Source of the DNA: Exobasidium rhododendri
Lineage: Eukaryota; Basidiomycota; Exobasidiomycetes; Exobasidiales; Exobasidiaceae
Assembly: GCA_026210745.1 (NCBI GenBank)
Contig: CP110630.1
Coordinates: 868,001-932,000 of the forward strand
DNA length: 64,000 bases
Direction: 5' to 3'
Positions 4,036-32,034 of this stretch are shown here, piece by piece. Below the pieces are notes generated by a model. It searched no databases and had not been told where the DNA came from. It saw only the letters and a program-made list of their open reading frames with translations. How positions within the stretch are numbered: the stretch's first letter is position 1; every line of letters starts with the position of its first letter. A program made the position numbers and the translations under genes.

Positions 4036-7000
4036 CTACGGGCGAGTCGGCCTCGACTGCTGATGGACAGACGACATGGCCTTCTTCCACTCGACTGCCT
4101 CTTGTGGTGTGGATGCTGTAAAATACAAAATGTGCTTGGGATCGACGACCCGTAGTGCTGGAGGCCGGAGAAGGAGAGAAAAAGAGAGGGGTGTTAAAAA
4201 GTCAGCATCCTGTATCCTCACTGGCCCTTTTTGCATCCGAGCGCCATCTCCTCGACACTCACTCGTCTGCCCGATGATCTCCACCTCGCCTTGAATCCGA
4301 AGAACGGCAAACAATTCCACGGATGCATTAGCGCTGCTTGGCTCCTTGCTTTTGCTCATCATCACGACAATGGTAATGTCGTTGCAGAGTAGCAGCATCA
4401 CCTTCTTCTCCATGCACTGTTGATCCAAGCAGTCCACTTGAACGATTCCAAACTTTGTGTCGGTCACGGCTCCGTCGCAGTCAATCGATTCCCTGCTTTC
4501 CTCCTCCAGCATGTGAGTGCGTGACATGTGAAAGGCAGTCGTCTTCATGACGATTCGCTTCAAGAGCAAGTCTCCGTCTTGGATCAATCGACGATGCGGT
4601 TGCACCAACGGTGAAGGAAAGTTGCCCTGAATCCTTGCTTGCCATTCCAGCAACTTGCGATCGTTCTCCGACTGTCGCTTGCTTTCATTCATCAAGGTAG
4701 CAATCGACAAGATAGACTCGTATGCCGACTGAAGACCGCTCGAGTCCTGCAGGCGATACGTGGGGCAATTGCGCTTCAGCTCTTCGAATAGCAGTCGATA
4801 GCGTGGGATCCGCTGCACCGGCAGGTGAAGATACGTCTCCAGGGACAATTGTGAGTGATTTGGGTCTAATCTTGCCCGCTGGAGAAACAATTTGATCCGC
4901 TTCTTCTCTTTCATGGTCAGTACGTTGCTCGCGTCGATGGATTGCTGAACCATGCCGTTCACCAGCGACGGCGGCGTTGCTCCTTCCTTGCCGTTGCCAT
5001 TGCCATTGCCGTTGCTGCTGCTGCTGCTGCTGCTGTTGTTGACACCGCCGCTCGCCTTGTCGCTCCTCCAATGGGCCACCCTCGTCTGAGCAGCGTCCAC
5101 ATTGTTCACATAGGCAGAGTACATCTTAAAGTAGGCGGCATGTCGTTGAAATACAACGGCCACCTGTTCGACCACGTTCGCCGACATGCTCTTGAACTCC
5201 TCTTCTGCACCCTCACCCTCTTCACTGACTTTCGACTTCCACATCGACAGATCGACGTCAATGACACTACGAGCAGCACTCTCTAAAGCGGGCAAGAATG
5301 CACCTCGGTGAAAGTGCAGAATCGCCTCGACGTTCCCAAACACTTTTCGTCTTTCAGGAGACGGGATCGCGCACTGACCATTGCCGCTTCCATCCTCCAG
5401 TCCAGCAGAGGGAAGGACGTAGATGTCGACTAGCTCTTGCAACCCGCGGATGTACGACTTCTCTGTGGCAATGATCTCCTGAACGATTCGGATGCGCCGT
5501 TCTGCATCGTCTCTTCCTTGCAGCGGGGCTACAGACGTGCAAAGCGGGGCATTTGCATCTGCGACGGCGCCAATCGCATGGTCCGAAGAGGAGGAGGAGG
5601 TGCTGCAGAGGGAAGACGGAAGAGGGTGATGATCCGACGAAGAGGAAGAAGGAGTCGTCGTCGTCGTCGTCGTCTCTGCACCGCTCTCGTGTGAATTACC
5701 GTTGGATGGATTGGAGTAACGAGTAGCCGCCATGGACGTATCCATCGGCAGGACCGAGCCAGGCGGTCCTACTCGCGATGCACTGAGATCATCCAAGTCT
5801 TGCAGATACTGCAGTAGAGCGCGCAGCTTTCGACGCTGATCAATGTCCTTCTGGTCACCACCTCTCCCCTTTCCCTTTCCTCTGCTTGCTTCCATGAGCG
5901 TGGCAAAGGTCGTCTCGCCGGGTGGGCTGTCACTGGTACAATCATGCCACCCTACCGGCGTCAGTGGACAGGTGATCTTTGCTTTCCTCGCGCTGTCCAA
6001 TTCGCCGCTTTCGCCTCCACTGACACACTTGCTCGTGTCAGCACTGGCGGAGATCAGAAGCGTCGTCAGGGACGTGTTCGATGGCCTCTTCACCAACTTG
6101 CGCATCACTCTTCCCCACTTCTTTTCAGGGCTTTCTGCACCAACCGATGGCCTCCTCTGCTCCGTTGCTGTCGTGTCTCCGTCGAGTTTCCCGTGTTTCT
6201 GCCCACCATCCCCGCTGCTAGTCAGTATTCTTCGGATCAACGGTCGTCTGGTCTGCTTTTCCTGCCCTCTTCCCGGTGAAAGACTCAGCATTGACAGTTG
6301 CTCGGCATCTGTCAAAGCAGCAGTGAACGGTGCTTCTGCAGCCTCTTCGATCTCTTCCGATTCATCTTCAAATGACGAGGCAGTCGTCTCGCTTGCTTCT
6401 TCTTCCGGCAACGGAGCAAAGTTCAACACTCTACTTGGGGCAGAGATCGCGTTTCTACCAAGACCCGGTCGAGGCAGGTTCCGAGTCGCTTGCTCCTCTT
6501 CTCCTCCTCCCCTTCCTCCCCCTCCTTCTTCTTCTTCTTCTTCCCCTTCCTGTCTGGAGAGAGTGAACGCTTCGCAGATGCGTCGCCACGCCCCTTGAAA
6601 CGGATTGCCATCCAATGACAATCGTTCTAGTTGCTTCAATCGATGCAGCCAGCTAGGAAGGTGAGTCAGACTGTTTCGTTCAAGAGACAAGACGTGAAGC
6701 TGCTGCAGTTCGCCGAAATCTCGCGGTAAGATGGTGAACTGACAGTCATCGGCAGTGAGACTTTGAAGATTCAGCAGGAACTTTCCCAATCCCAGATTCT
6801 TCCAGGGTCGATCGAAAGGATTACTAGAGATGTTCACTTCCTCCAACTTGCTGCACTGAAGAATGGATCCGGGCAACCTAGTCAAGCCGGTGTTGGATAC
6901 GTCGAGAACAAGTAGGTGACTGCTGACGACTGGTAAAGCTTTCTCTAGAAAGGACAGCATGTCTCCATCTTGACAACCAGCCAACAAAAGGTGGCTCGTC

Positions 7001-8667
7001 TTAGAGCTCAGCATGCTTCCGATTTGTTGCAATGACTTTCCGTTTCCGAACAGGAAGCTTTCGTTCCCTTCCTCTGCCAGGGCGACGGAGAATTGATCTG
7101 TGGAACGATCCTTCGGTGTGAGAAAGTCGTCTGGGATAGTCATGGCCAGGTAGTCGTCCAGGATCTCTGTGCTGTAGAGCGCTTTCGCCGAAGAAGAGGT
7201 GTCTTTACTGAGCGGCAGCAGTCTGGCTTGGCGACTGCTCTTGTTGATGACGCTGCTGCTGCTGCTGCTACCACCAATTTCTCCTCTACTACTCATGCTG
7301 CCACTACTTCCACTACCACTATTGGACGCCGCCGGCTTACTCTGATGGCTTGTCCCTCTTCCGGCGATGTCCTCTCCTAGGCCTCCGGTGACTGCTATCG
7401 TGTTGTTCCTTTTTCTACTCGAAACCGTTTCATCATGCTGCGGTACGTTTGATGATGGCTGCCTTGATTTCGTAGACTTCGTCGTCTTTTTCATCGAACT
7501 TGTTCTGGGACTGATCTTCGAAAAGGAAGAATCCGTTGTGCTAGAGGTGACACTATTGGTCGACATGGAACGGGAAGTGCCTGGTCTTGCTTGATACTTT
7601 TCGTCAGCGGAGGCGTTTCGTGAAAAGGAAGAGACCAACGAACTTTTGGAAGCTTTGATTCGGAGGCCAGTGTGAGGGTTGTTCTGCTGGGAGGATGAAG
7701 TAGCGGTAGAACTAGATCGAGATCGAGAAGCGCAACGCGGAGGTACACTGACGTTGAAAGGCAACGGAGAGCTACTGAAGACTTCTGCCGGAGCTGCGGT
7801 ATTCTTGCTGCTCTCTGCGGCGGCGGCGGCAACGACGACGGCAGCAGGCGAAGTAGTGCTCAGCTTGTTGCCGCTCAGCATGGTCCAAGAAGGAGAGCGA
7901 TGGTGGGAAAATGGGCCACTGACGTTGCTTCGATCTGGGACAATGGCATACTGTTCGTCGGAGGCAGCCTCGTCTTTCGACTTCAAGCCTAGTCCCACCG
8001 CAATCAAGTTCACTGCATCACTTTCATGGGCTAGTTGTTCACTGTCTCTCACTGGACTCCCAAAAGCAAAGCCATAGCCGTTGGGGCTCGTTGCTATACT
8101 GCTATCGCTCTCCGTCCTGGTCGTCGAAGATGCCAAGGTAGAGCAAGAGAGTCGAATAGAGTCATCAAACAGATCAAAGTTGCTTTGCGCTGTGTAGTGG
8201 TCCTGGGGGCTACCAAAGCTGACGGGTGAGTCGTAGTATTCTTCACGTTTCGATGGATGGATCATGGTGAGAAGAGATAAGGGCGAATTCCACTCCATTC
8301 CAAACATTCCTATGGCAGGAGTGACAATCTCCTCCTTTGCTTGTCCTTCGCCAGACAGGTCACCTATCGGCGGCAGTGGTTTGTCCTTTGCCGATGATTC
8401 AAATCTGGATGTGGTAGTCCACATCATGGGCGAGTGAAACATCGTAGCTGAAGAAGTGCCGTCGTCTGAATCATCCATGTGCACTGTTGTTCCAAGGGTG
8501 GTCAGTATAGAGTCAGGGTGTGCGCCTTCTTACTACCTGATGAAGCACTCACAATCATTTTCTGTACTCTTTGGTGAAGGTGGTAGTTGCTTTTCTCGGT
8601 TTTTGGGGGTGAAGGAGGATGGATCGTCGAGAGCCACGTCTCGGTCTGCGTACATCGATGAGGCCAT
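4036..8667 (-). CDS. Leucine-rich-repeat RhoGEF (LRR-DH-PH protein)
   Basis: Predicted guanine-nucleotide exchange factor for Rho/Cdc42-type GTPases. Exons 8667-8553, 8483-4263 and 4157-4036 give 1,485 residues. A Ser-rich disordered N-terminal half is followed by LRRs at about residues 540-680 (LDVSNTGLTRLPGSILQCSK, LHVLSLERNSLTHLPSWLHR), an acidic/polyE stretch, a Dbl-homology domain at about 1040-1315 (RRIRIVQEIIATEKSYIRGL, then LPVQRIPRYRLLFEELKRN, the signature helix) and a PH domain at about 1330-1480 ending in a helix with EAVEWKKAM. The 105-nt intron 4158-4262 lies inside a continuous reading frame; I call it because it has a GTGAGT donor, a GCTGAC branch site and a TCCAG end, and its removal joins EIIGQT to LRVVDPKHILYF. 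ATG 8667 opens MASSMYADRD. The GTPase partner is unknown. Confidence 0.85.
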
Positions 8668-11600
8668 ACTCGAGGGCCGGGCGTGAGGTGATGAAGCGAG
8701 GATATTACACTCTAGGAGGGGGGGGCGTTTGTGATGGCAGTGTGTCGATGAGACAAAAAGGAAGCGACAGCGCGAATAAACGAGAGTGCAGTGCGGGCGA
8801 TGAAAGAAGTTTGCCTTACTTCCTTGTCGTGACTCAAGCCCAGGAGCAAGACAATGGAAGACTGAGAGAAAGTGCCAGAACAATGATGACACTCCCTTTC
8901 ACCTGCGATCCGACGTCTGGGAAAGTCGGCTAGACTACTACTGCTGCTGATGCCCTCTTGTACGTATCACAGCTCTGTCCCTAGCTAAATCCTAGTCGTC
9001 GAAGGTGGTGAAAATACTGTACGAGGAGCGTAATTTGAAGAAATCGCACAGCCCCTTGACCGGCCTATCAAAGGCAGGCGGGCAGAGAAGAAGAGCACCG
9101 AGCGTAGTTTTTCCCCCTTTACTTCAATGAAGCGATATGGGTGGGGGCGGCGCCGTTGATCAAAGCTTTGTGTGACACGGAGTAGAGAGGGGGAAGGAAT
9201 TTCAACCCAGTACGGACGAGAGAAGACGATGGAGAATGCAAGTCAGATCGGTGCCGTCGACGAGGAGATTGTTACTATCCTGATTACTACACTGATGGAT
9301 GGCGAAGAGTGTGCAATTCCTAGGACGGACGGCGCTGTGAGAAGTGGATGTTGCTTGCCTGCGAGGAGGATGGCGGGTGGTTGCGTGACTTCTTGTCCGA
9401 TACGAATAGAGCCTTTCCTATCTTGTACTGCCTAGCACTCCGCTTGTCCAGCAAGTTGGGAGGTTATGTCAAGTCTTGGGCAGGTGTTTCTAGTCGGCGA
9501 CACCGAGGAGTGGAGAGGTGCAATCACGACGAAGGAGGTGGCTCTTCCCACTTTTATCCTTCCCACACAGTGACAAGTAAATTCATCTCTCGAGTGACTG
9601 TGACAATGCCAGCCCAGCATCAATCCCAAGAGCCAAAATAAAAAAAAGGGACCCCTCAAGATAATTCCTAAAAATAAAAAACCTCTCCTTAATGCACTCG
9701 AGAATATCAATACGACTTAGTGCGTTATTGAAGTCGAAAGTTATCATCTCTATTTGTTTGTTGCTGGGGTTTGTCTTTCATTTTCCTATGGCGCTTCCCT
9801 TTAATTTTAGAGTGGGAAAAAAAACCAGACAGAAGCGCGCGAGGGAGGCCAAGATCCATTTTCACAATCACTGTCTGCGGTCAATCATCCGTGGCACAGT
9901 CGAACACAGGGACAGAGCAATATCGTTCATCACACCCTTCGACGGTTCACATATCATCCGAGCTATCAAGCTGAACGGTATGCAAGATTGCATCTCAAGG
10001 ATGAGAGAGACGCCTTGAGCTCGAGGCTGCTAAAACGTGATGAGTGAAACAATCAATCAGCTATCGGATCAGAGCTGCAGGCGTTTAAAAAAAAGGAGTT
10101 TTAATTTCAGAGAAGTAAGCCAAGAGATGCGCGCCTTCCTAATCTTAAATATCTATTTTAATTCTTTACAGAATAGCTACTGGGGACGTATTAACTTAGG
10201 AAGTATTGCTTTGTAGCAGCGTTGCTCACCATGTCCGTGGGCAATGAGTGATGTACGATGAGGGGTCCCGTAGCACGAGCCGTATGCCCACAGTCTTGCG
10301 GTAAGGGTTGAGCTCGCTTGAACACACCCTCGAGTGCGGTGGTGAGTGTGCGACCATTGGTGATCAGTAAGGCTGGCTCTGAGATCATCTTTTGGTGGTA
10401 CAAGCAACATGAGTCTTTGCAGCCAGGCATAGTGAAGGAATACAAGCTCGCCTAAGTCTTACAGGGGTACGAGTTCAGTCTTTGTTCAGAGCGGACCGTT
10501 GAATCAGGATGCCAGAAATGGCTCTGTATCATACCTTGACGAGATCCTGCCTCCTTCATTCATCTCCCGCGCACTCAAGGTGCAAATTAGTGATGTTCGA
10601 CATCTTTTGCGGTCTTCTATCTAGAACTTCCCAACGAACGCTGGCAACAGAATGCAAGGCGCTCTATTTGACATCATAGAAAGATCAAACACTGTCTACT
10701 CGGTCTCAGATATGCCTTCGCAGTCGTCCACAATTTTACACAATCTTGCACATCGAAAAGCCAGCATGGCCTGGTCTCGGATGCGTTTTCGATGGCGAAT
10801 GTCACGCTGCTATGGTCTTTAGCATACGGCATCCTTCCATCACCCCTCACGACCTCTTGTCTATACACAAGACCGGTTCTTGAGGAGCCAATTGCGTTTC
10901 ACGGCCACACGGGACTGTTTTTATCCAGTCGACTTGGCTGCCCATCGGCGAAAGCAATAGCAACTGTGCGCACATGAGGAATGCTAGCACAGAAGATCTG
11001 CCTCCTACCATTTTAGGATGAGGGCAAATTATTCTCCTCGAGCTACTGTGTCGGGCAAGCTCTCAAGTGCGAGGTCTCCTGCTGACCAAAACAGCAAGTG
11101 GCTGCTCCAGCTTCCGTACTTTCAGAATGTATTTTTTTTTCTAGCTGTATAATTCGACCCTTAGCTATGCTGAATTCTGGACAAAGAGCGAAGATCACAT
11201 AGTACTGTCAGGACAGAGAGGATCAGAGAAATAGTCATGGTGGTACAACAGAAGCGAGGACACTTTCACATTAAGACGACGGACATAGACGACGGACGCT
11301 CTTTCAAAATTATAGCTTCCTAGTGCAACGCATACCGCTTCATTTAAGTCTTTCGATCATCATTACGACTCATTCATCACTCGACCCCGTCTTCCTGCGC
11401 CTGTTCCATCACGGCAAGCAAGACGTCCAGGACAGGAGGACGTACCGCACCGCGTTAAATACCCAAAGTCACCTGCCTTTCTTAGGACAGTGAGGCCTGT
11501 TCTAAGCCGCGCGATCATCTTTACGACTATTTGCTGTGTACTAGCCATGTGTCTCACAAGTGTCATGGAGCCCTCACGATTTTTTCTTTCTTTCAACGTC

Positions 11601-12683
11601 AAAACGGTACCTCACTACCCTTCCTCTCGTTGTAGTTCTCGTTGTAAGACATGAAGACCCTTTCTTTGGTACAGTGCAACAGGGAAAGTGGCGCTGCAGT
11701 CTGGAGTGATTTTCCTCTTCGCTCGGAACGGACGGGGACACACGACAGTGCTAGTTCAGTTTATATAAATAGCGTCACAGCCGGCAGCGCGCAAAGCCAG
11801 TCGGAGGAGGCCTATACAGATAGGTATTTGAAGAGGAGAAATTGGTAGTCATGTGTCAATAGTAAGTTTGGTAGATTGATTACCGTGCTATCGATCACTG
11901 TACCTGGCGCCCCTTTTGAAATTTGTCGAGTCGATTCAAACACTATTTTTGCTATTCACTTGACTACCTACCAAATGTATGCAGTTCACATATTGGGCTA
12001 TTTCCCCCCAATTTCGACCGATCGCGTTTCGCGAATTTCTTCCGTCTTATTGTGCGGCGCAATCCTCTTAGCATACATGCCTTGCAAAGAAGAGAAATAC
12101 AAATTTCGAAGAGTCTATTACAGTTTAGTTGCCCCCGTTCCCCCCTACCTTCCTCTATACAAACACATACTCGGAGCCCTCCCTTGTCTAATAATACCGC
12201 CCACTAAGTTTGTCAGTCGACCCCTACTTCGCGTTCGATCCTTTTTTCTCCTCTCTCTCCCTCTTGAAGTTAGACAGCCTTTTCTCCTTTCTCCTTCTCA
12301 TATCCCCTCCTCCCCTCCCCGTCTTTCTCTGCTGGCTCATCAAGCGAGCACTTTACCGAGCGTCAACCGTTTGCTTGCCACAGACGACCTGCTGTCTTGC
12401 CAGTATCCCATCAAGAAACGCCGACAGGATTCGACGAGGCTTGTTGGTAGCGTGAACGGCAAAGGCAGAGAGCTAGAAGGTAACAATACCGCGAACCGAC
12501 TCCTGACACTATCGACCCGTACCTATACCTTCATTTTCGCTCTTTGTGCCGCCTCACTCTCCCTTTCAGCTTAAGATAGCCGACGTCTTCTCTCACCGTA
12601 TACTATTTTCCAACTTCACACCAACAAAGTGACAGCGCCATTCGGATCTACCATCGCTACGTCGGTCTGTCTCGCTAGCCGAC
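8668..12683. other. Gene-poor intergenic region of about 4 kb
   Basis: No reading frame here resembles a known family, and none could be joined across introns into a credible protein. The part before about 8.9 kb is the 5' leader and promoter side of the RhoGEF gene. 9.2-11.8 kb is unremarkable mixed sequence with short A/T runs (near 9640-9680, 10087-10110 and 11127-11150). From about 12.1 to 12.35 kb the plus strand is pyrimidine-rich, typical of a fungal promoter or leader for the NRPS-like gene that starts at 12684. No tRNA or rRNA was recognised. Unannotated non-coding RNA or regulatory DNA remains possible. Confidence 0.5.
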
Positions 12684-15600
12684 ATGTCTCGCTCCGAATT
12701 CCCCCTTGGGTTCATCTATTCGCTACCTACTCGACCAAAGACAATATCGCTGGGTGACCATCTGGCATCTCAAATCACAGACAGTGGGCGATGTTCGACT
12801 CTACTGGATGCGCTGTGCTCTACGACTGCTCCTGCTCTTTGGTCGCCCGACTTAAATCGACCCCCGATAAATCACTTGACGGTAAAGCGATACATTCAAT
12901 CGTTTGTATTGCCTTCATCGACGACACCACTGGGGCCCAATGATCGAGTCATGATGGCTCTACCCACCGGGGCCGAAAACGCCATCGCTCTTCTTGCAGT
13001 TGCCGCCTACCATACTTGCGCGCCCATCAATGCCAGCTGTACCGCCGGCGAATTGAGAGACGATGCGGTTCGACTGAGAGCAAAGGCGATAGTCACAACC
13101 AGAGATGCGGCTGAAAGATTAGATGTGCAAGCTTTGAAACGCGAAGAGGGTATGGAAATCATCTTTGTGGAAGCGAGAAACAGTGGGCCTGCTGGAATAT
13201 TCGACATGTCGCTGCTTGACGGAGAGGTGAACCAGAGCAGGAAGCCATCACAATTACATGGTCTAGAGCATCAATCGCTGGTTCTACATACATCGGGCAC
13301 ATCAGGAAGAAAGAAGGTTGTTCCATACTCGCTTCGTCATTTGATTGTCGGAACATGCTGTGTTGTTCAGAGCTGGGATTTGAGACCAGAGAGTGTCAAT
13401 AGTGAGTCAATTTCATACTTGAACGTTTAAAATTACCTGGTTTTCCCCGTTCATACACTGACGTCTGACCTTTTTACAGTGAATATGATGCCCCTGTTCC
13501 ATGTTGGAGGAATTGTGCGTAATCTATGGGCCCCTATGTTTTCCGGAGGCAGTGCCATTATGTGCGCAGGCTTCGATGCAACCATGTGGTGGTCTCTGGC
13601 CAAACTACTTGGTGCAACATGGTACTATGCCGCCCCAACCATGCATCACGCCATTCTTGCGTCAAAACCAGAGGGTGTGAATGCTGCGAAAGAAACAAAG
13701 ATTCGAATGATTGCCAATGCCGCCGGTGGTCTCTTACCCTCGCTGGCCATTCAGCTGAAGGAGACTTTCCCAGCTTGCGCGGTCCTCCCTTCGTATGGAA
13801 TGACAGAGTGCATGCCGATTGCTTCGCCGCCCACAAATTATCAGCTCGACCGGCCTGGTTGCTCTGGTGTCGCATGTGGACCAGATCTTTCTATTCGTGA
13901 TCCTTTCAATCGCGAGAAGGAATTGCCCGTCGGTCAAACGGGAGCCATCTCCGTTCGAGGTCTACCCACCTTTTCAGGATATGAAATGTCGACCAATCCG
14001 TTTGAGCCGTTGGATACCTCGTCCTTTTCAAGTGAAGGGTGGTTCGATTCCGGTGACATGGGGCACATGGACGCAGACGGTTATCTTTACATTACCGGTC
14101 GATCCAAAGAGATCATCAACAAGGGAGGAGAAGTCATCTCACCGTTTGAAGTGGAAGAAGCCATTTCTCAAGCTTGCAAAGACCGCGTCAAGCAAACATT
14201 GGCCTTTTCCATCGAACATACAGTACTGCAAGAGACGATCGGTGTCGTCATTGTACCCGTACCAAATCAACCAAGGATCGGATTGGCAGAACTGCAAAAC
14301 TTGCTTCGATCTCACTTGCATCCTTCCAAGTGGCCCTTTGCGATTGTGTATATGAACGATCTACCAAAGAATCAAGCTGGAAAGCCCCTTCGTATCAAGC
14401 TGGGCAGTCGATTGAACATAGGACCTCTATCCGACGATGTTCCTGCCTTACTGCGCCACTTTGAAGCACGAGCACCTGGAAAGGAAGTACCTCTGACAGA
14501 ACCAATCCCCTGTAGCTTGGTCTCCGTTGACATTCGAGCAGTAGAGAGAGCTTGTTACCGTATCATTGGTATTGTGGAAGCAGCTGTTCGTCAACGAAAA
14601 GACGGAGCGCCGGAAGCGTTTATTCAGGTGGAAGAAACGGCAGAATACGACGCTGCGGACATCGATCGTGCTTTGGCGCAAGTCTTGCATGGCTACGTTG
14701 TCCCCAATCCACTACACGTCTTCCGTCAACCACTGGCTAAGCTGTCGAACGGTCAAATTGATTTCCGCACGATGGAAGAAGAAGTTCGAGCGCAGAATGC
14801 CTCCAGCATGTCTAGGACGGCCCTCGTTGTGCGAGATATCATTGCGAAGCTGCTAGACACCGAATCCGGTACAATCACTGCCGAGTCGGACTTTTTCCTA
14901 CTGGGAGGTAACTCACTACTACTGGGCAGACTGGTTCACTTGATCCGAAAAGAGACTGGCTCGTCGCTGGAAGTCTCGACGCTGTTCAACAACTCCACCG
15001 TCGAAGGAATCGCCATGCTCATTGAGGAAGATCAAGGGGTGGAAGAGGATGAGTACGACATGATGGACGGTTTCATGGATGAAAAGAGCACCAACGGTGG
15101 AGCTTTCAGCAGCGCTCATCGATACGATGAAGTCAGCGATGTGAATCCTGCCTTTGCTAGTCATGGATACAAACCACGTAGCCAAACGAATCCTTGGGTC
15201 ATGTTTGTTCAGCTCCTGCCCTTTCTCTTCTTCTATCCAGCCAAAGCAGCCTGGACTTGGACCGTCATCCTGCACGGTCTCGCCTTTTCCGCCTACTACA
15301 TCGAAGATGTCTTTTGGGAAAGAGTGGGCGTCTTGCTGGCTTCCGTCATCATTGCACGATTCACCAGTCGAATCATCTGTCCCGTCACTGCCATTGCTTT
15401 CAAGTGGTTGATCATCGGACGATATCGACCGGGAAAGTACCCGATGTGGTGCAACTATCATCTACGTTGGTGGATCGTGAATCAATCTCTCAAGACGGCT
15501 GGAAAAGGGTTGTTTGGTCTAAGTCCTTCGTTGACAAAGGCGTACTATCGCCTGCTCGGAATGTCTATCGGGTCTGACGTTCAGATTGACAAGTTTGCAA

Positions 15601-17552
15601 AGATGGCAGAGTACGATCTCATTACGATTCATGATGGTGCTCGTATCGACAAGTCGCTCGTTCGTGGATTCTGTGTGGAACGCGAAGGCTACTTCCGACT
15701 AGAACCGATCATCATTGGACGAGATTGCGTCGTCAACACGTTTACTCAGATCTCGCCGGGTGCTCGACTAGCAGACGGAACCGTGTGGGGACCTCAATCT
15801 TCCTCTCATGAAGAGCCTTCGAGTGATGCATACGCCGCTTACAATCGGAACGCTGCTCCTACACCAAGTGTGTGGTTGATTTCGTTTGTTGGCATTCCTA
15901 TCATCCTGTTGGTGCGACTGATTTGCTATGTTCCTTGGTTTGCCGCTCTGTTCATGCTCTTATCTCAACCGTTTGAGTTTGATCATCACGACTCGGTCAA
16001 GGGAGTTATTGCTTGGTTTGCTTACCCACGCCGAATCGGCTGGCATTACGTTGCAAGAGTGGTACGAAACATTATGCCACCGCTCATCAATCTCGTCTTG
16101 GGCATCATGCTCAAGAGAATCATGGGACTGAACCGAGAAGGATCCATGCGAAACGCCACGCAAATCTCCCTCTTCAGAAGATGGCTGAACAATCAACTCC
16201 TTTCTCAACCAAACATCCGTCGAGCCATGGCCATCCTAGGAACGCACTATGAAATGACGTCGGTCGTGTATCGTGCGATGGGAGCAAAGGTTGGCAAGCG
16301 AGTCTATTGGCCAGGTAGTGGTATCTACTGCCCTGATCCTGAGTTGATCGAGATTGGTGATGACGTCGTCTTTGGATCCCGATCAGAGGTGTTCACATCA
16401 GACTCGATTGGATGGGCAAGAGTTCGCGTCGGTCGAGGTGCGATGATTGCTGACCGAGTCGTTCTCTTGCCTGGCACGACGATTGGTAAGCAATGTGTCA
16501 TGGGCTCCGGAGCTTTGGCGGTACGAAACGGTCACTACGAAGAAAGCACTGTTTGGATGGGCTGCAAGAATGGATCGGCAGTCAGCTTCGGCAGAGCAGC
16601 AAGAGACAAGAACGAAGCTTCCGTCGGTACGGAAGACGAAACAATCACCCCCTTCGGACGAGCATTCTACAAACGCAAAGCATCCTTCTTCGTCTTTCCC
16701 TACTTTATGCTCATTGTCATCAACCTTGCCATGGCTCTCTTCTCTTCGGTGTACTGGGCAACGGCTGCCGTAGGAACAATCTTGGCCTTGAATCGACTTC
16801 GACAACAGTACGAGTACGCCGCTACTGTCATCTTCACCGATCACTGGTATCGACCCGGTCTTGTGTATGCCTTTATTGCCATCTGCTTTGTCATCATCCT
16901 CGACATTCAAGCCATCCTCGCCTTTGCCTGGGTCATTACAACAAAGTGGGCCGTGATCGGACGAAGGCGTGAAGGTCGATATGACTGGGACAAGAGTAGT
17001 TACTGTCAAAGATGGCAATTGCACTTGACTTTGCAAAGGTTACTCGGAAAAGGATTCGGAGGTCATCTGATAGGACACATTTCTGGAACAGTCTTTGCTG
17101 TGTGGTATCTACGATTGTTGGGTGCGAATATCGGTAAACAGTGTTCCATCTGGGCAGGTGGCAAGCCAAGTCTACAGTTGACTGAACCTGAATTGGTGAC
17201 GATGGGCGACTTTGTCACTATTGACGATTGTTCGATCGTAGCACACATCAACAGCCGAGGTAGATTCTCACTGAATCGATTGACGATTGCACCTGGCTGT
17301 GCGCTTCGAACAGGCAGTCGACTCTTGAGTGGTGCTGCGATGGAGCAGAACTCCATGTTGCTGGAGCACACACTGATTGCTTCAGGAGAGATTGCAGAAG
17401 CAAATAGCGTCTATGCCGGCTGGCCTGCGAGACAGTTGCGAATATTCAAGGCAAAACCAAGGGGCGATGCCGGAAATGGCTCTTCTGCCGAGAGCTCAAA
17501 TTACAACCTGCACAGTCCAATCAGCGGTCCATCGTCCTACTTGACAAAGTGA
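12684..17552 (+). CDS. Pls/PosA-type NRPS-like synthetase (AMP ligase, carrier domain, three membrane/LbH units)
   Basis: Exons 12684-13401 and 13480-17552 (78-nt intron, phase 1) give 1,596 residues. Residues 1 to about 550 are an adenylation domain: HTSGTSGRKKVVPYS, YGMTE, WFDSGDMG, GRSKEIINKGGEVISPFEVE and LPKNQAGKPLR. About 590-680 is a second AMP-ligase C-terminal-like subdomain in which the NGK motif reads LSNGQIDFR. A carrier domain follows (FFLLGGNSLLLGRL near residue 715; the Ser takes phosphopantetheine). The remainder has three repeats of paired membrane helices plus hexapeptide (left-handed beta-helix) segments, e.g. IEIGDDVVFGSRSEVF. This order is that of bacterial Pls (epsilon-poly-L-lysine synthetase) and of the NRPS terminal domain family. 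The substrate cannot be read from sequence; an acyl or amino-acid substrate is equally open. No tailoring genes lie nearby. Confidence 0.88.
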
Positions 17553-18098
17553 AGCCGACCCACCTTTCAAATGCACCGCAATTATCAATCTAGCACACTA
17601 GGGGGAAAGCCCTTCTCCCTTCTTTCATTCTCCTCTTCTCCCCTAATTTATTCCCCTCCAGTCGACTCAAAAAATGGACAATCTCTCTCTCTCTCTTCTC
17701 ACCATGCCACGAAAATATCACCCACAACACAATACGAGATCCCTCACATGTACACCCCTGGAAGGAGGGGAAGGAAAGCAAGTCCACGATTCGACCTCTC
17801 GACTGTTCTTCGGACCTCTTTCATCCCCTTCGATCCACGCAGCAATCGTTTCATTCTCTTTCTCTCTGTGATGCAGTCACTCTGAACACAACCACCACAC
17901 ACGCCGTCTCTCCCCCCTCCTCTCTTCTTCTCTACACTTCTATCTTCCTTCTCTTTCTCTCGCTCTCCCTAGACAATACTTGTTATTTTTTTTTGGTTTC
18001 TCTACATCTTTAACGTACGCAATTTGATTTGTTCAAGCTCAAGGGGTGGAGGTTTGTGTACATTGCGAAGTCTTTTCCAGCGTTGATGATGGATCATA
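17553..18098. other. Convergent 3' region of the NRPS-like gene and GET1
   Basis: About 545 bp of mostly pyrimidine-rich plus-strand sequence (CT-rich near 17600-17700 and 17910-17970, T-run near 17987-17995). No gene or RNA was recognised. It presumably contains the 3' UTRs of both neighbours. Confidence 0.5.
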
Positions 18099-19094
18099 TC
18101 AGTCCAATGCCGGTCCTGTCGTCGTCCTCTTCCGTAGTGACTCTGGTTTCTCACTCATACCTGCCGCCGGGACGGGCTTCCCTCTGCTTGCTTCCATGGG
18201 CTTTTCGTTTAACGTGTCGTCACTAGAAGTAGGGACACGACTACTGGCGAGTGAAGAGACGACGAGAAATGTTTCCCGAAGCCTGTTGGTGACTAGAAGA
18301 GCAACTCTCGTACAGACGGTCGACCACATGCCTGCGCTGACAGAGCCTGTAATGTTCGTACGAGTGATAAGGACGTAGCAGTAGCGATTGTGACTTGTGA
18401 GTGAGAGAACATACGTGTCAAAAAGTGAGACTTTTAAACTCACCTCTTGGGGCTCCGGTCATACTGAGCAACCAGCCCATTGGACCTAGGTAAGTTTCAT
18501 TGGCCAAGTCCCATGCATGATTTGGATTGTGAGGTATCGTGAATCCACCTGGTGCCATTCGGGCGGGTCTAGAAGTGGAAGCCGTTGTCCCAGAAGGCGG
18601 TAGGAAGAACATGGGAGTCTTTCCAAAGTAGAATGTAAGTACGAATGGGAATAGAGTCGTCGAGAGGAATAACACTACTCTAAGTAATAGACCGAGTGTA
18701 GATGAGGCACTGGCCAGTCGAGCGTCTGGCGAAGATTAGCAAGGTTCGAGGAGGAGGAGGAGAAGATTCCCAGAAGAGAGAATGAGTACCTCTTTCATCT
18801 TTACAAGCACACGACGCTGGACCACTCACTAGTTGCCTCTAATTGCGAGATGGATTTGTCTACACTACGACGCAGCTTTGCCCACTTTGCGAACTCATCT
18901 TGACTGCTCGTTTTGTTCAGTTGCTGCCTTGTCTCATAGATGGTCTTCTTTAATTGCTTTTGAATCCTGGTATCCTGTGAATGGAACAGGCGTAGGTACA
19001 GGGGCGATATTGAGCTCTGTATGCGTTCCCTTCCAATCAGAGTCGTCAAATGAGATCCAAAGACGACGAACAGTACGATCAGAGCAGGATGCAT
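18099..19094 (-). CDS. GET1: GET1/WRB, ER receptor subunit for tail-anchored protein insertion
   Basis: Get1 with Get2 forms the ER membrane receptor that takes tail-anchored proteins from the Get3 ATPase. Exons 19094-18830, 18725-18444 and 18346-18099 splice in phase (introns 104 and 97 nt) to 264 residues. The N terminus MHPALIVLFVVFGSHLTTLI is the first membrane segment. A charged coiled coil follows at about 40-85 (QKQLKKTIYETRQQLNKTSS, EFAKWAKLRRSVDK), the Get3-binding part in this family. The second helix is about 98-121 (LLLRVVLFLSTTLFPFVLTF), and the third is near 187-202 after GPMGWLLSMTGAPRG. The C terminus is a polar extension of about 55 residues, longer than the yeast protein. 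Start chosen at the ATG of MHPAL; the codons before it contain no ATG. Confidence 0.9.
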
Positions 19095-19677
19095 GATACC
19101 CAAACCGATCTCTCCTTAGTCGTCTTCTTCCAAGCAATGGCCCGAGAAGTGGTCTCTGCATTCAAAGAGGTGGAGACATCGATGGCATGCTACCGGTACA
19201 CGATCTCGTCCACTACTCACGTGTCAGGCCACGACGCAAGGACCCTCTCGTCTTCTCAAATTTCTCCATATATTTCTGGTTAGACAAATCTGAGATGAAG
19301 CTAGCTAGACGGCTCGTTACTTCGCAATTCCGAGACCGCTTACACCTTTTCCTATGTCATCTGGTGGGTCCCTATTTTAAGATTTTTATTTTCTAAGTGC
19401 GTTCCGTTTTACCTCTTTTTTTTTGCGTGGTAGAGAAAGGGAAGAGGTGTGTGGTCGTCAGATGGAGGTTTGTGCTTACGGAAAAGGAAAAAGGGGGTTT
19501 GTGATCGATTGAGGTTTTCCCTACTTTGAAATTGGCGATCGAGAGAGAGTGACAAGGAGGATTCCGCTCACCTTCATCTCCTGGCCACCACAACGCATCT
19601 TCCCAAGGACAAGGGCCTTCCCTGTTCTTCTCCTTACTACAGCGCTGCTATCCTAGAGCTGTGTTTGTACCCCCGCC
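19095..19677. promoter_or_regulatory. Divergent promoter region of GET1 and the DUF7137 gene
   Basis: About 580 bp between divergent start codons. It contains an A/T-rich patch near 19375-19430 and a G/A-rich stretch near 19430-19500. No gene is seen. Likely holds both promoters. Confidence 0.5.
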
Positions 19678-20452
19678 ATGATGACAGCATACCCGAATCG
19701 GAGCACATTCTTTGCCGTTCTTTCTGTTTTCTTCATCGTTCTAGCTGATCGTCTAGTACAGTGTCAGGTAGTCCCTATCACTGTCTCTCCAACAACAACA
19801 ATTTCGTCGACGGCATCTTCAGCGACAACGTCAACATCAGTCTCGATACCATCTACTGCCGCCAACGGGGGAATCACGATCACTGAACCTGCCCAAACAG
19901 CCGATGCTTCATACTACAAAATAGCGCAAGGTGTGACGGTCACGTTTGGTTGGAACTTCACTTCGGTATTGAGTTACCCAACATCACTCGTCGTCCAAGC
20001 TGTCTGTTCAGACAACTCAAATACCTACACCATTGCAACCTCATTGCCTGGGACAGCTACCAATGTCACCTGGGTTCCCTACGATTATGACCAAAATGCA
20101 GCTCAGTCGGGCAATCCTGCTTTGATTCAAGCAACGTATCGATTGGAGATCTTTGACGAGAGGGGTCTCTCGGTAGCAGCAAGTCCGGGTCGCTTTTCAC
20201 CTAACACTCAAGTCGATTTCGCCCTCTACATCCCTCAGCCTTATACACCGATTGCCAGTGAGTCGGAGATCAGAAGTTGTAGCAGCAGAAAGAGAATCTC
20301 ATTGACTAATCCCTTCCGCTACTGCAGGCGGCTGGTTTTGCTCGGCTTGCAGTGGAGCTTCTTCACTGGAGGTTCCCAGGCCGCTACTTCTGGCAGTCGT
20401 CTCTACCTGCCTCGTCATGGTCTTTGGGAGCTGGAGTATCCTTCAGAGGTGA
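19678..20452 (+). CDS. DUF7137-type secreted/membrane protein
   Basis: Exons 19678-20257 and 20328-20452 (70-nt intron with TGACTAAT branch site, phase 1) give 234 residues. A signal peptide is evident at residues 1 to about 31 (FFAVLSVFFIVLADRLVQCQ). A Ser/Thr-rich linker follows, then a beta-rich domain starting near ITITEPAQTADASYYKIAQG, with VTFGWNFTSVLSYP and FSPNTQVDFALYIPQPYTP. The second exon supplies a Cys pair (GGWFCSACSG) and a C-terminal membrane segment (LLLAVVSTCLVMVFGSWSIL). This layout matches the fungal DUF7137 family, which has no established function; several N-glycosylation sequons (NFT, NVT) fit the secretory route. The splice is well supported, since without it the membrane segment is lost. 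Surface location is inferred. Confidence 0.75.
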
Positions 20453-20537
20453 CCACGCAACAAGACTAGGCTAGATTTCCTACTGTAACAACAACGGCAT
20501 TCTCTTCAACATTGGCCAGCACATCTTCACACGTCAT

Positions 20538-20671: not shown

Positions 20672-23362
20672 CTACTCCTCCACGACTTCCTCTTCGTTTC
20701 TTGGCACATGACGACGTCGTGACCGTTCCCGCTCTTTTCGCTCCAGCTCTCGTTTCTTCTTTTCCGCTCGAAGCCGCTCGGTTTCCGTTGAATTTGACTT
20801 CGAGACACTTCCTGAACGAGGTCGATGATGTGAGGTGGTGCTCGAAGCGCTGACCGCTCTTTCATTTCGACGTTTTGCGTCTTTCATAATATCCTCCTTT
20901 GTGGCAGGCAAGTCATTTGTTTCATCATCGTCGTCGTCGTCATCATCTCCATCACCTTGCTCATCTCTCGCAGCTCCAGATGGAATTTCCGATGCTGCCA
21001 CTCTGATCGGGGTCGCACTCTTCTTGCGAACGACCTTGGTGGCTTCTGCTGGTCTGCCTTCCTCGATAATCTCGTGTCCATACTCGTTTCGTTCAATCTC
21101 CCTTGTTGGATCGACTGCAAGTCCCTTGGCCCTTTCTTCCTCTTCCCTATCTTCTCCTTCCTGCAGCTCCTCTAATTTTCTACTAAGCAGGCTTGCCTCA
21201 ATTCTGGGTGCTTCTCCACTCAAGTCCACTCCGGCCAACAGTCCATACTCTTCCAAATCGACAGGCAACTTCCTCTTGAAAGCGAGATCAAGACTGCGAC
21301 TGTCTGTCCTTTCCAGACTTCTCCACTTTGATCGTATCTGCTTTCGGTTCCGATTTGGAAACATTCGAGCGATCATCTCAAAATCACTTCCCCACATGGA
21401 TACGGCCTGTAAGAATCGTCTTGTCTCTTGAGCATCCCATCTTTCCGTGCCGACTCGTTTCGAGTAGGTTGCTGAATTGACGAATCGGTCATTCTCATTG
21501 ATGTCCAGGTACTCGGCACCAAGGCCGTCCATGCTAGCGTCGAGACTCCTTTGCTGCTGAAGGCTGCTTTCATCAAGCACGATCTGGCCATTTACGATTC
21601 TCGTCTGGACGGTGAATCGATTCTCTCGTAGAGGGTGATGGTGTGATGATGCGACCGATGTTGCCCCAGCAGAGTCAGCGTCCGATCCTCCACCATCCGC
21701 CTCGTCCTCCTCTCTTTCTTCTCCATCGGAATTAGTCCGGCTTGATGGCTGACGTCCCTCGCCTGCAGGACCTCCCCTCTCTGCCTCGTCCTCGTCATCA
21801 TCCTCCTCCTCCTCCTCCTCCTTTTCGCCCTTTTCTCGCCTTCGCTGCCCCTCGTCTGCTGTTCTCCCACTGACCACGGCAGCTCGATGCACTTTAAGCT
21901 GCTTCTTCCGTTCCCTCTTGACATTCTCCAATTTTCTCTGCATGTCAAACGTTCGCCTACTCGCTCGACCCTGCTTAAAGGCGGGCAAGCTCAAGTCTGC
22001 CATGGCCGTCTTCCTTGGGTCAAGTCTTCTAGCTCGAAGGTGAGCGCCGTACTGCTCGACCTCGGCAAGATACCCTGCTTCATCTTCCGATGCAGTCTTC
22101 TTCTTTTCCTTTGTCCGTTTCCTCTTCACTTCGACTTCGTTCTCTTCATCCCACAGTTGCTTTTCAGTTGCGTACTGCCTTTCTGCCTCGCGCACCCGGT
22201 TCTCGTACTCGGCACGCTCTTCTCCGCTGAGAGACTGCCAGGCCTCTCTCCTCTTTTCTGCACTCTCGTCACCCGGTCGGTCATCTTGAAACAGCTGGTA
22301 GGCGTCCTTGGAAGGTGGTGCCGGTTCGACTTTTCTACTCATCGATCTTCTCGTCCTGCTCAATGTCGTCGTCGGATGTGACGCTTGAGACTCCGAATAC
22401 TTTGCCAGCCAATCCTCCATGTTAGATTGCCATACTTCCTTCTTCAAAGCTGCTTCGCTTTCGTAGTGGGCCCGTTCGTCCAAGGGTAAGTTCTTCCATT
22501 CCTCTCGAACCTTGGCAGTGATGTTAAAGCTTGCGCCATCCGCTGTCCCCGCTGCCTCACTGATTCGTGGTCTCGTTTCTCGAGAGAAGAGCACGTAGGC
22601 TGACAGAGGTTTCGTGGGTCTCTGTGGCACTGCTTTACCTTTGTCCTTTCTTGTCTTGTGGCCATCCTCCCCCTCGTCGCCGCCCGCATCTCTCGTAGCT
22701 GAGTAATCAACGGGTGCATGCACCGATGATGCATCCTTCCCATCCGCCACATTTCGCCTGCTTCTCCTCAGATTATTCTCGGGCTCCATCCTTCTCTTTC
22801 TTCCAGGAATTAGGACTTCCTGTCCGACCTCGGCTGGTGCATCGCCCTGTCCGTCATGATGTCTTGTCCAGAAGGGTGGTGCCTGTACTGGCTCCTCAAG
22901 TGGTGCACTAATCCTCGGAGAAGCTGTCGCCTGCGGTGTCTGCGATCGACGTGAAGGAGCGACCAATGGCGGGCCCATGGATGTCCCTCTAGCGTGTGCG
23001 TGCGAGTGAGCACCCGACCCTACAAAGATGGGCACACCGCCCCCTCGCGAAGACAGGGAAGAGCCCAAAGCATAGCTCTTCGTTGTTGCTGCTCTATTGT
23101 TGCTGCTGCTGCTGATACTTTTGTTGTTGTTGCTGCTGCTGTCGTCCTCGCTGCTGGTCCCAGTCGAGGTCCGCATTGGGAAGGGCGATGGCTCCATGGA
23201 GGCGGAAGGTCGGATCGGTGCCGGTATAGCGAGGGGAGTCGCTCGAATGGACGAGGCCTCCCCACTACCGTTCTCAGCCCGCCTCTGGGCTTCAGTGCTG
23301 TGGACGTTCCTCGACACTGGTCGGATCTTCACCGCGGTCGCCCCTCCGACTCTCGAAGTCAT
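20672..23362 (-). CDS. BDP1: TFIIIB subunit Bdp1 with N-terminal HMG-box sequence
   Basis: Bdp1 (B'') joins TBP and Brf1 at Pol III promoters. The C-terminal third has the family signature: RIVNGQIVLDESSLQ, SATYSKRVGTERWDAQETRR, then the extended SANT/Myb domain (VSMWGSDFEMIARMFPNRNR, KQIRSKWRSLER) at about residues 625-700, then KLPVDLEEYGL. Unusually, residues about 244-322 form a clear HMG box (RPTKPLSAYVLFSRETRPRI, VREEWKNLPLDERAHYESEA), and about 350-405 resemble a second, weaker one (SKDAYQLFQDDRPG, AWQSLSGEERAEYE). No intron interrupts the frame. I start at ATG 23362 (MTSRVGGATAVKIRPVSRN, basic), giving 896 residues; the frame is open 34 codons further but that part is not conserved-looking. 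Acidic and basic low-complexity tracts fill the remainder. Confidence 0.88.
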   Translation of the reverse strand: MTSRVGGATAVKIRPVSRNVHSTEAQRRAENGSGEASSIRATPLAIPAPIRPSASMEPSPFPMRTSTGTSSEDDSSSNNNKSISSSSNNRAATTKSYALGSSLSSRGGGVPIFVGSGAHSHAHARGTSMGPPLVAPSRRSQTPQATASPRISAPLEEPVQAPPFWTRHHDGQGDAPAEVGQEVLIPGRKRRMEPENNLRRSRRNVADGKDASSVHAPVDYSATRDAGGDEGEDGHKTRKDKGKAVPQRPTKPLSAYVLFSRETRPRISEAAGTADGASFNITAKVREEWKNLPLDERAHYESEAALKKEVWQSNMEDWLAKYSESQASHPTTTLSRTRRSMSRKVEPAPPSKDAYQLFQDDRPGDESAEKRREAWQSLSGEERAEYENRVREAERQYATEKQLWDEENEVEVKRKRTKEKKKTASEDEAGYLAEVEQYGAHLRARRLDPRKTAMADLSLPAFKQGRASRRTFDMQRKLENVKRERKKQLKVHRAAVVSGRTADEGQRRREKGEKEEEEEEDDDEDEAERGGPAGEGRQPSSRTNSDGEEREEDEADGGGSDADSAGATSVASSHHHPLRENRFTVQTRIVNGQIVLDESSLQQQRSLDASMDGLGAEYLDINENDRFVNSATYSKRVGTERWDAQETRRFLQAVSMWGSDFEMIARMFPNRNRKQIRSKWRSLERTDSRSLDLAFKRKLPVDLEEYGLLAGVDLSGEAPRIEASLLSRKLEELQEGEDREEEERAKGLAVDPTREIERNEYGHEIIEEGRPAEATKVVRKKSATPIRVAASEIPSGAARDEQGDGDDDDDDDDETNDLPATKEDIMKDAKRRNERAVSASSTTSHHRPRSGSVSKSNSTETERLRAEKKKRELERKERERSRRRHVPRNEEEVVEE

Positions 23363-23510
23363 CTCTGCAGGCGGGCGCTGTGAGTCAAAGTCGGAGGTAC
23401 AGGGAGCGAGATGTATGTATGAGGACTGATCGAGGGAGAAATGCAAAAGAGTCCCCCCTGGCACTGCAAGATTTCAAATAGAATCATAAACATAGTCAAA
23501 CCTAGATGCA

Positions 23511-23617
23511 GCCCCATTAGCTCAGTTGGTTAGAGCTCGATGCTTATATTCTTTTGAATTCACTTAGAGAATACCCCACCGACGTCGTGGTCGTCGGTTC
23601 AAGCCCGACATGGAGCA
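23511..23617 (+). tRNA. tRNA-Ile(UAU) with a 33-nt intron
   Basis: Cloverleaf read by hand: acceptor 23511-23517 with 23610-23616, D stem GCTC/GAGC, anticodon stem CGATG (23538-23542) with CGTCG (23583-23587), anticodon TAT at 23545-23547, T stem GTCGG/CCGAC around TTCAAGC, discriminator A at 23617. The intron is 23549-23581, between positions 37 and 38 as in eukaryotic nuclear tRNAs. A box 23518-23529 and B box 23597-23606 are internal Pol III elements. One oddity: acceptor pair 3:70 is C-A, not a Watson-Crick or wobble pair. This tRNA decodes AUA and is often the intron-bearing Ile species in fungi. Confidence 0.9.
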
Positions 23618-27389: not shown

Positions 27390-27561
27390 GTCGATTTGTT
27401 GAACTTAGCCTTGATATGAAGACTCCATCAAGCCAATGTATTCGACTTGGGTTCCTCAGAAAAGTTCTCACGCACGTGCTTTAAAGATTCCCTCCCAACT
27501 TCGTCACAGATGACTGAAAGTGCTTCCCCTCGCTCTTCCATACCTCGCCACCGTACCGACC
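27390..27561. promoter_or_regulatory. Compact divergent promoter of TRM10 and NCS6
   Basis: Only 172 bp separate the ATG of TRM10 (27389, minus) from the ATG of NCS6 (27562, plus). Both promoters and leaders must overlap here. No TATA box or obvious operator was recognised. Co-expression of the two tRNA-modification genes is inference. Confidence 0.65.
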
Positions 27562-28698
27562 ATGCCGGCTCGCCTCTGTACGACCTGCCAGACGGCGAGA
27601 GCAGTCCTTCGACGCCCAAAGACTGGAGCCCTTGTCTGCAGAGAATGCTTCTTCTATATCTTCGAGGAGGAAGTACATCAGACAATTGTGAATGCTCGAC
27701 TCTTCCAATCGGGTGATCGGGTGGCTATCGGGGCGTCGGGTGGAAAGGATTCGACCGTGCTGGCTCACGTAATTAAGACGCTCAACGATCGATACAAGTA
27801 TGGTCTCAACTTGTTTCTACTCAGTATTGATGAAGGAATCACTGGATATCGTGACGATTCGCTGGAGACTGTTAAACGAAACAAAATACAATACGGTATG
27901 CCTCTCAAAGTTCTGGGCTACGACGAGCTCTATGGCTGGACGATGGATGATATTGTCAAGCAGGTTGGCATGAAGAACAATTGCACATTTTGTGGAGTCT
28001 TCAGACGGCAAGCCCTGGACAGAGGTGCAGCTACGCTTGGTGTCGATCACATTATAACTGGCCACAACGCAGATGACATGGCAGAGACGATCCTGATGAA
28101 TGTCTTGCGTGGAGACATTGCTCGATTAGAGAGGTGCACAGACATTTGCACCCGTGGAGCACAAGAAGGAGCGATTGAAGAGGAAGAAGAGGAAGGTTGT
28201 GGTGCGCATGAAAACGAATTCGGCGGAACGGGTATTAAGCGAAGCAAACCTTTCAAGTACGCTTATGAAAAGGAGATCGTAATGTACGCCTACTACAAGA
28301 AGCTCGACTATTTCAGTACGGAGTGTATCTATCATCCCAATGCCTATCGAGGTTATGCACGAGAGTACTTGCGTGAATTGGAGCAGATTCGACCCAGCGC
28401 AGTAATTGATATCATTCACTCTGGAGAAGCGCTACGAGTAGGAGGAGAAGTCAAACGACCAGAGCAAAGGAAGTGTGCAAGATGTGGCTACATGTCATCA
28501 AACGAGCTATGCAAAGCCTGCCTTCTTCTGGAAGGACTAAACAGAGGTCAGCCCTCTATGGGAATTCATTCTTCCAAGTCGAGGTACGTTCGAGAGGCAA
28601 GAGCAGGCGATGCAGGAAAGGACGACGAGAGCAAGATCGGTCGCAAGATTGCAATGTACGAGAGGCCAGGGAAAGCAAAGGTGGAGATCACGACGTGA
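27562..28698 (+). CDS. NCS6: Cytosolic tRNA 2-thiolase Ncs6 (Ctu1)
   Basis: With Ncs2 it transfers sulfur from Urm1 to C2 of wobble uridine U34 in tRNA-Lys(UUU), -Gln(UUG) and -Glu(UUC). Single exon, 378 residues. N-terminal zinc-ribbon cysteines are CTTCQTARA and CRECFF. The PP-loop ATPase signature is [16 protein letters not shown] near residue 57. Then [36 protein letters not shown] (CxxC near the active site), [14 protein letters not shown], and a C-terminal Cys cluster [21 protein letters not shown] short acidic insert (EEEEEEG) interrupts the middle. I start at ATG 27562 (MPARLCTTC), because nothing conserved lies upstream. The stop overlaps the stop of the convergent DDAH gene. Confidence 0.95.
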
Positions 28699-31905: not shown

Positions 31906-32003
31906 TTATTGCTTTTGAGCCTGGAAAGACCACGAATCATATGTGTTTGACACTTTTCCCAGGCTGAGATTATACGGGTTTCGATTGATCTGCTGTGGTG
32001 GTT

Positions 32004-32034
<31 letters not shown>

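Follow-up and report, generated by a model that had tools for sequence, protein, structure and literature searches.

What does a basidiomycete make with a protein that pairs an acyl-activating ligase with the membrane machinery of polylysine synthesis? The question is raised by a gene at positions 12684..17552 of a 64,000-nucleotide stretch of Exobasidium rhododendri DNA (assembly GCA_026210745.1, contig CP110630.1, positions 868,001 to 932,000; hereafter the window). An initial annotation had described a Pls/PosA-like synthetase, that is, a relative of the bacterial epsilon-poly-L-lysine synthetases (Pls), composed of an AMP ligase, a carrier domain and three membrane/beta-helix units. Its coordinates are correct, and Pfam, TIGR02353 and an AlphaFold2 model bear out all the components; the family assignment, however, does not hold. 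Sequence and model establish the domain order, the homology of units C1-C3 to those of Pls, the acyl-ligase type of the adenylation (A) domain, the loss of the aspartate that binds the alpha-amino group in Pls, and an extra, lysine-less A_sub domain. We think it probable that the gene encodes a one-module, membrane-bound acyl-transfer synthetase, which would pass a non-alpha-amino acyl group to an amine or hydroxyl acceptor.

The gene consists of two exons:

12684..13401, + strand: exon 1, residues 1-239 and the first base of codon 240; N-terminal half of the adenylation core
13402..13479, + strand: intron of 78 bases, GTGAGT...ACAG, the sole break in the reading frame
13480..17552, + strand: exon 2, residues 240-1596, up to the stop codon

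The spliced product is 1596 residues long and ends in YLTK, and the peptide across the exon junction, DLRPESVNMNMMPLFHVGG, is the same in relative P0002. Because exon 2 reads without interruption through 1357 codons, from the middle of the ligase to the C terminus, there is one gene here, as first annotated, and not two. The full-length Novosphingobium member of the family is likewise a single frame, of 1531 codons, and the two-gene reading was rejected on both counts.

From the N to the C terminus the protein comprises an acyl ligase core, an A_sub, a second A_sub-like domain, a carrier, and three units of membrane helices plus a beta-helix. Conservation was read from 38 hand-picked family rows (the window protein and 37 chosen from 351 that were retrieved) and 13 hand-picked Pls rows (from 85 Pls loci); alignments A4 and A5 hold 46 and 44 rows, respectively. 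The features are as follows:

12861..14126, + strand: acyl-CoA-ligase-type adenylation core, about residues 60-455, containing the intron; motifs MPLFHVGG, WYYAAPTMH, NAAGG and YGMTECMPI
14127..14417, + strand: first A_sub; the A10 lysine is Lys541, Lys in 38/38 family rows
14526..14801, + strand: second, degenerate A_sub-like domain, about residues 589-680; Gln665 replaces the A10 lysine
14829..15014, + strand: carrier (PP-binding), residues 690-751, with GGNSL and Ser718
15192..15818, + strand: unit C1, helix pair 811-884, beta-helix about 933-1019
15870..16595, + strand: unit C2, helix region 1037-1121, beta-helix about 1174-1278; the top fold match is to hexapeptide acyltransferases
16701..17432, + strand: unit C3, helix pair 1314-1399, beta-helix about 1454-1557
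17244..17246, + strand: codon of His1495, candidate general base, conserved in 97% of the 38 family rows and in 13/13 Pls rows

Pfam detects AMP-binding in both exons (E 3e-10 in exon 1, 4.7e-22 in exon 2), PP-binding (PF00550, E 7e-12) and Hexapep (E 2.6e-9); AMP-binding_C (E 0.0005) lies under its cut-off in the window protein and over it in P0002. The carrier site that had been picked out, GGNSLLLG, occupies residues 715-722, with Ser718 encoded at 14913-14915, and this position is Ser in all 38 family rows and all 13 Pls rows. No condensation or thioesterase Pfam domain, as looked for in a classical nonribosomal peptide synthetase (NRPS), was found in the window exons or in four relatives.

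The kinship with Pls resides in the C-terminal half. TIGR02353 matches the protein in three stretches (E 1.3e-53), and hhalign aligned this half with the Pls units at a probability of 100% over 679 columns (E 2.3e-80; profile of 77 of the 85 Pls, the shorter ones left out). These profiles bear out the proposed homology of the C-terminal half to the bacterial units C1-C3; its identity to three bacterial Pls is 23-25%. In the AlphaFold2 model of residues 690-1565 (predicted local distance difference test, pLDDT, 87; predicted template modelling score, pTM, 0.86) there are three helix regions, in which long hydrophobic helices occur, and a strand pattern of the beta-helix type comes after each. 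Six membrane helices are present in the model, hydropathy alone being weaker for the first. Unit C2 has the left-handed beta-helix acyltransferase fold and in this resembles hexapeptide acyltransferases such as the serine, xenobiotic and streptogramin acetyltransferases. Those enzymes are soluble homotrimers with acyl-CoA donors, whereas here three units are chained in one protein with membrane helices and a carrier. Foldseek, given the whole C-half model, returned partial matches only (serine and galactoside acetyltransferases and the like); a solved C1-C3 assembly is absent among the matches listed, which does not prove that none exists. The C1-C3 units of Pls were reportedly the subject of a mutational study by Kito in 2013.

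Membership in the Pls/PosA family is another matter, and we rejected it. The order of A domain and carrier (T) followed by three membrane and beta-helix units is shared, and the carrier serine and the histidine and glutamate of C3 are retained. However, the window protein scores 182.5 bits and the Novosphingobium member 188.5 bits on TIGR02353, for which the curated cut-off is 423.1 and three bacterial Pls controls reach 626-885 bits. The A domain differs in type. Its closest solved structures by sequence are oxalyl-CoA synthetases and MatB, the top fold matches of a model of relative P0125 (pLDDT 83.7) are again oxalyl-CoA synthetases, and NCBIfam ranks FadD-type ligases far above TIGR01733. 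The latter reaches 21.9 bits in exon 1 and falls outside the best 25 models of exon 2, hence at most 79.9 bits there, against a cut-off of 317.4 and 414-432 bits for three bacterial Pls controls. The first A_sub also groups with acyl-CoA ligases (E 1.4e-30, versus 4e-11 for Pls). At the position of Asp235, the alpha-amino-binding residue of Pls, all 13 Pls rows have Asp and all 38 family rows have Gly; the Stachelhaus-type ten-residue code was read at this position only, because the A domain is of another type. A Pls A domain structure is present in the PDB (7wew). On these comparisons the adenylation domain is of the acyl-CoA-ligase type, nearest to oxalyl-CoA synthetases.

That the protein is nonetheless a true Pls making polylysine seems to us highly improbable. 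Domain order and C-half homology speak for it; the TIGR02353 score far below the cut-off, the lack of a TIGR01733-type A domain and the lost aspartate speak against it, as does comparison with a fungal enzyme. According to the available part of its description, Epls of Epichloe festucae is a characterised fungal polylysine synthetase with the identical domain order, 51% identity to Streptomyces Pls and a conserved lysine pocket (PMC7179176), whereas the window gene has only the low C-half identity given above and no amino-acid A domain; by that published description Epls is a lineage distinct from the window gene. Because the TIGR02353 score stays below its cut-off, the A domain does not belong to the amino-acid type and Asp235 is replaced by Gly, a cationic alpha-amino-acid polymer is an unlikely product. 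Of the two products first suggested, the membrane-made acyl compound fits better.

Oxalate itself is a doubtful substrate, because the positions that we take to contact it in AAE3 (His214, Ser289 and His319) align, as judged by eye, to His, Ala and Pro here. The accessible part of PMC9935904 did not contain the oxalate-pocket residues. Oxalyl-CoA synthetases (Pcs60, AAE3), the nearest relatives of the A domain by sequence and, for P0125, by fold, are single-domain ligases; MoPcs60 has 522 residues and carries a type 1 peroxisomal targeting signal, as stated in the available part of PMC8826238, whereas the synthetase here has 1596 residues, a carrier, membrane units and a YLTK end.

The second A_sub lies directly N-terminal of the carrier, the site of the sole A_sub in Pls. 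The A10 column of this domain holds Lys in 1 of 38 family rows and in all 13 Pls rows. It aligned with the A_sub of 81 of the 85 Pls at a probability of 98.8% (E 1.4e-16), with the first A_sub of the same protein at 86% (E 4.9e-6) and with two unrelated domains at less than 1%; by profile, then, it is an A_sub-type domain. A Pls origin is only weakly favoured, because acyl-CoA ligases (13 of 15 used; 98.0%, E 3.1e-13) match it nearly as strongly at equal depth, five equal-size Pls subsets giving E 7.8e-14 to 1.3e-15. The idea that a ligase core was swapped in front of an old A_sub-T-C module, leaving the degenerate A_sub as a scar, is attractive but unproven.

In the acyl-transfer synthetase that we propose, the ligase would activate a carboxylic acid without a recognised alpha-amino group. 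The acid would be loaded on the phosphopantetheine of Ser718, as the conserved carrier and an adjoining Novosphingobium phosphopantetheinyl transferase (PPTase) gene suggest, and the three membrane-tethered beta-helix units would take the acyl group off the carrier and join it to an acceptor, either an amine or a hydroxyl, that diffuses freely or is borne by the membrane. His1495 in C3 is the likely general base, by comparison with Pls and hexapeptide acyltransferases. Acyl transfer off Ser718 is the most likely task of C1-C3 by analogy with Pls, whose units, according to the available part of PMC9205021, join the carrier-bound monomer repeatedly to a freely diffusing acceptor to give a polymer. 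Such repeated transfer, together with the retention of all three units in unchanged order, would also suit a Pls-like polymerase that turns an omega- or beta-amino acid into a polyamide. We consider this unlikely, given an A domain of the acyl-CoA-ligase type and conserved C2 and C3 positions that differ from those of Pls; no amine-binding acidic residue was noticed in the pocket either, although no systematic search for one was made.

Relatives were collected in three protein searches, from which the best 120 of 852 (at E up to 1e-3), of 776 and of 910 matches were taken. All named organisms in the first set are basidiomycetes except for one fern assembly. That entry (P0012), a close smut-type homologue filed under Adiantum nelumboides, is probably fungal contamination. 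Identity to the window protein is 81-83% for five named smut-lineage relatives in the set (Violaceomyces, Ceraceosorus, Thecaphora, Tilletia and Parajaminaea) and 68-69% for four named ones from Malassezia; because of these identities the product of the synthetase likely matters to the cell. Schizophyllum commune H4-8 also has a homologue, P0083. The A-T and profile searches (best 120 of 776 and of 910) add Fusarium, Colletotrichum, Metarhizium, Xylariales, Dothideomycetes, Ophidiomyces, chytrids, Umbelopsis, the rotifer Adineta vaga and Novosphingobium, and the matches listed also include diatoms: Cylindrotheca, Seminavis, a Bacillariaceae metagenome-assembled genome (MAG) and probably Cyclotella cryptica (label CCRYP). 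The sources carry only generic names for these proteins (peroxisomal-CoA synthetase, NRPS-like protein, acetyl-CoA synthetase-like), and among the papers listed by searches of the open-licence PubMed Central literature, judged mostly by their listings, we recognised none treating this family or its product. In the tree, the chytrid proteins P0278 and P0301 (Geranomyces, Thoreauomyces) nest in the Ascomycota group (Shimodaira-Hasegawa-like approximate likelihood ratio support of 100 for the group and 96 for the subgroup), unlike two Chytriomyces members, which lie outside it; gene transfer or contamination is possible.

Among the bacterial genomes sampled the family is rare. Loci with a window-like C half numbered 86 (the best 80 of 574 matches plus six plasmid loci), or 85 distinct ones, as L004 and L023 are one plasmid locus. 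The family motifs FHVGG and TECMP occur in L010, a Novosphingobium locus, alone among them; the NRPS motif NxYGPTE is present in 80 of the 86, and the five exceptions other than L010 are short frames of 669-1033 residues. This set misses further Novosphingobium members known here, and other bacterial members may exist. The family was found in 3 of 149 genomes of the genus of L010, L010 counted, and in 1 of 298 genomes sampled from its taxonomic family, which is L010 itself (C-half query, E up to 1e-40). P0279, filed under an Acidimicrobiales MAG, groups with Novosphingobium (68% identity to the L010 protein), and its contig may be misbinned.

Of the 120 relatives listed from the first search, 35, including proteins of Mycena, Athelia, Marasmius, Lentinula and Taiwanofungus, carry a RING finger (C3HC4) pattern C-terminal to C3, as does none of the 117 new proteins of the third; Pfam confirms it in both fused proteins scanned, P0034 and P0047, and the window protein has no C-terminal RING finger. 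The fusion suggests ubiquitin-linked control of a biosynthetic membrane enzyme. It also hints at a regulatory role or control of turnover, as would befit a membrane half that is a scaffold or regulator while the ligase merely supplies acyl-CoA or acyl-carrier to another enzyme. The conservation of the putative catalytic C1-C3 positions from fungi to bacteria argues against such a division of labour, to which we give little credence.

The bacterial gene context bears on the nature of the product. In all three Novosphingobium genomes compared (loci L010/L110/L111, L114 and L115) the order is a response-regulator-like frame (assigned from sequence, without a domain scan), a sensor kinase whose top NCBIfam matches are PmrB and heavy-metal kinases, each under its cut-off, an 880-residue secreted protein, the synthetase and the PPTase. 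Each has a TonB-dependent receptor gene some 2 kb downstream; it was domain-scanned in two and assigned by similarity in the third, and its frame is split in two pieces in genome G001. On the TonB-siderophor model (cut-off 223.5) the L115 receptor scores 370 bits and the L114 receptor 97 bits, below the cut-off. Two of the loci share a ferritin-like gene, and PepSY_TM and ApbE occur in one each. This context suggests a role in metal handling, without proving it. The product might be a siderophore-like metal-binding amide, or a metal-regulated envelope compound, with the acyl group joined to an amine acceptor, a reading to which we assign a modest chance. The conserved run and the receptors favour it, and the 85 canonical Pls loci (84 distinct) gave no match to the 880-residue protein and one locus matching the TonB receptor query. 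That control is insensitive, however, because it missed the annotated PPTase of L005, and its flanks mostly reach 5 kb or less. Sphingomonads carry many TonB receptors, so that a single one nearby is weak evidence; the 880-residue protein has no Pfam or NCBIfam match and is a putative outer-membrane protein by our reading only. Around the fungal gene, no such partner turned up in the 16 frames scanned, and the bacterial and fungal functions may differ.

The fungal neighbours are mainly of the housekeeping type, as the initial annotation had noted: 12 of the 16 window frames scanned have a Pfam match. These frames exclude the stretches immediately flanking the gene, 8485-12683 and 17553-19677. 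The matches are:

4039-8484: RhoGEF/LRR
19678-20466, + strand: DUF7137 (E 3e-44), the closest downstream frame among those scanned
20675-23464: Myb/HMG
27520-28695: PP-loop and zinc ribbon
30005-31552: Methyltransf_8
31909-34302: YDR124W-like
35650-37143: PAXNEB
39372-44147: RRP5-like S1
44885-46933: ALO
49524-51068: class II tRNA synthetase
57981-58988: Cns1/TTC4
62398-63423: ORC5

A tRNA at 23511-23617 (+ strand; Rfam, 47.4 bits) was missed by ARAGORN and, being 107 bases long, probably bears an intron. Across the 17.6 Mb genome of E. rhododendri, TIGR02353 matches are confined to the synthetase gene, and its A domain shares 24% identity with the next-best match.

The available part of a 2021 paper holds this architecture to be restricted to synthetases of cationic poly-amino acids (PMC8117764). 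The family breaks that rule: here it is an acyl-type ligase that drives the membrane module, both among the 120 top-scoring relatives listed and in further phyla. It is conceivable, and we put it forward tentatively, that these proteins form a separate old class, spread over fungi, diatoms, a rotifer and Novosphingobium, whose Pls-like ancestor exchanged its amino-acid adenylation core for an acyl-CoA-ligase module and kept the old A_sub as a dead scar. The polymerase would thereby have become an acyl-carrier acyltransferase for a conserved membrane or metal-binding metabolite, under RING ubiquitin control in many mushrooms. We see here an old, widespread family in which a fatty-acid-type activating enzyme is fused to the membrane machinery that builds polylysine in bacteria. 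The identity of its substrate would lead to a novel natural product or modification of lipids, and would shed light on the role of the poorly understood C1-C3 units.

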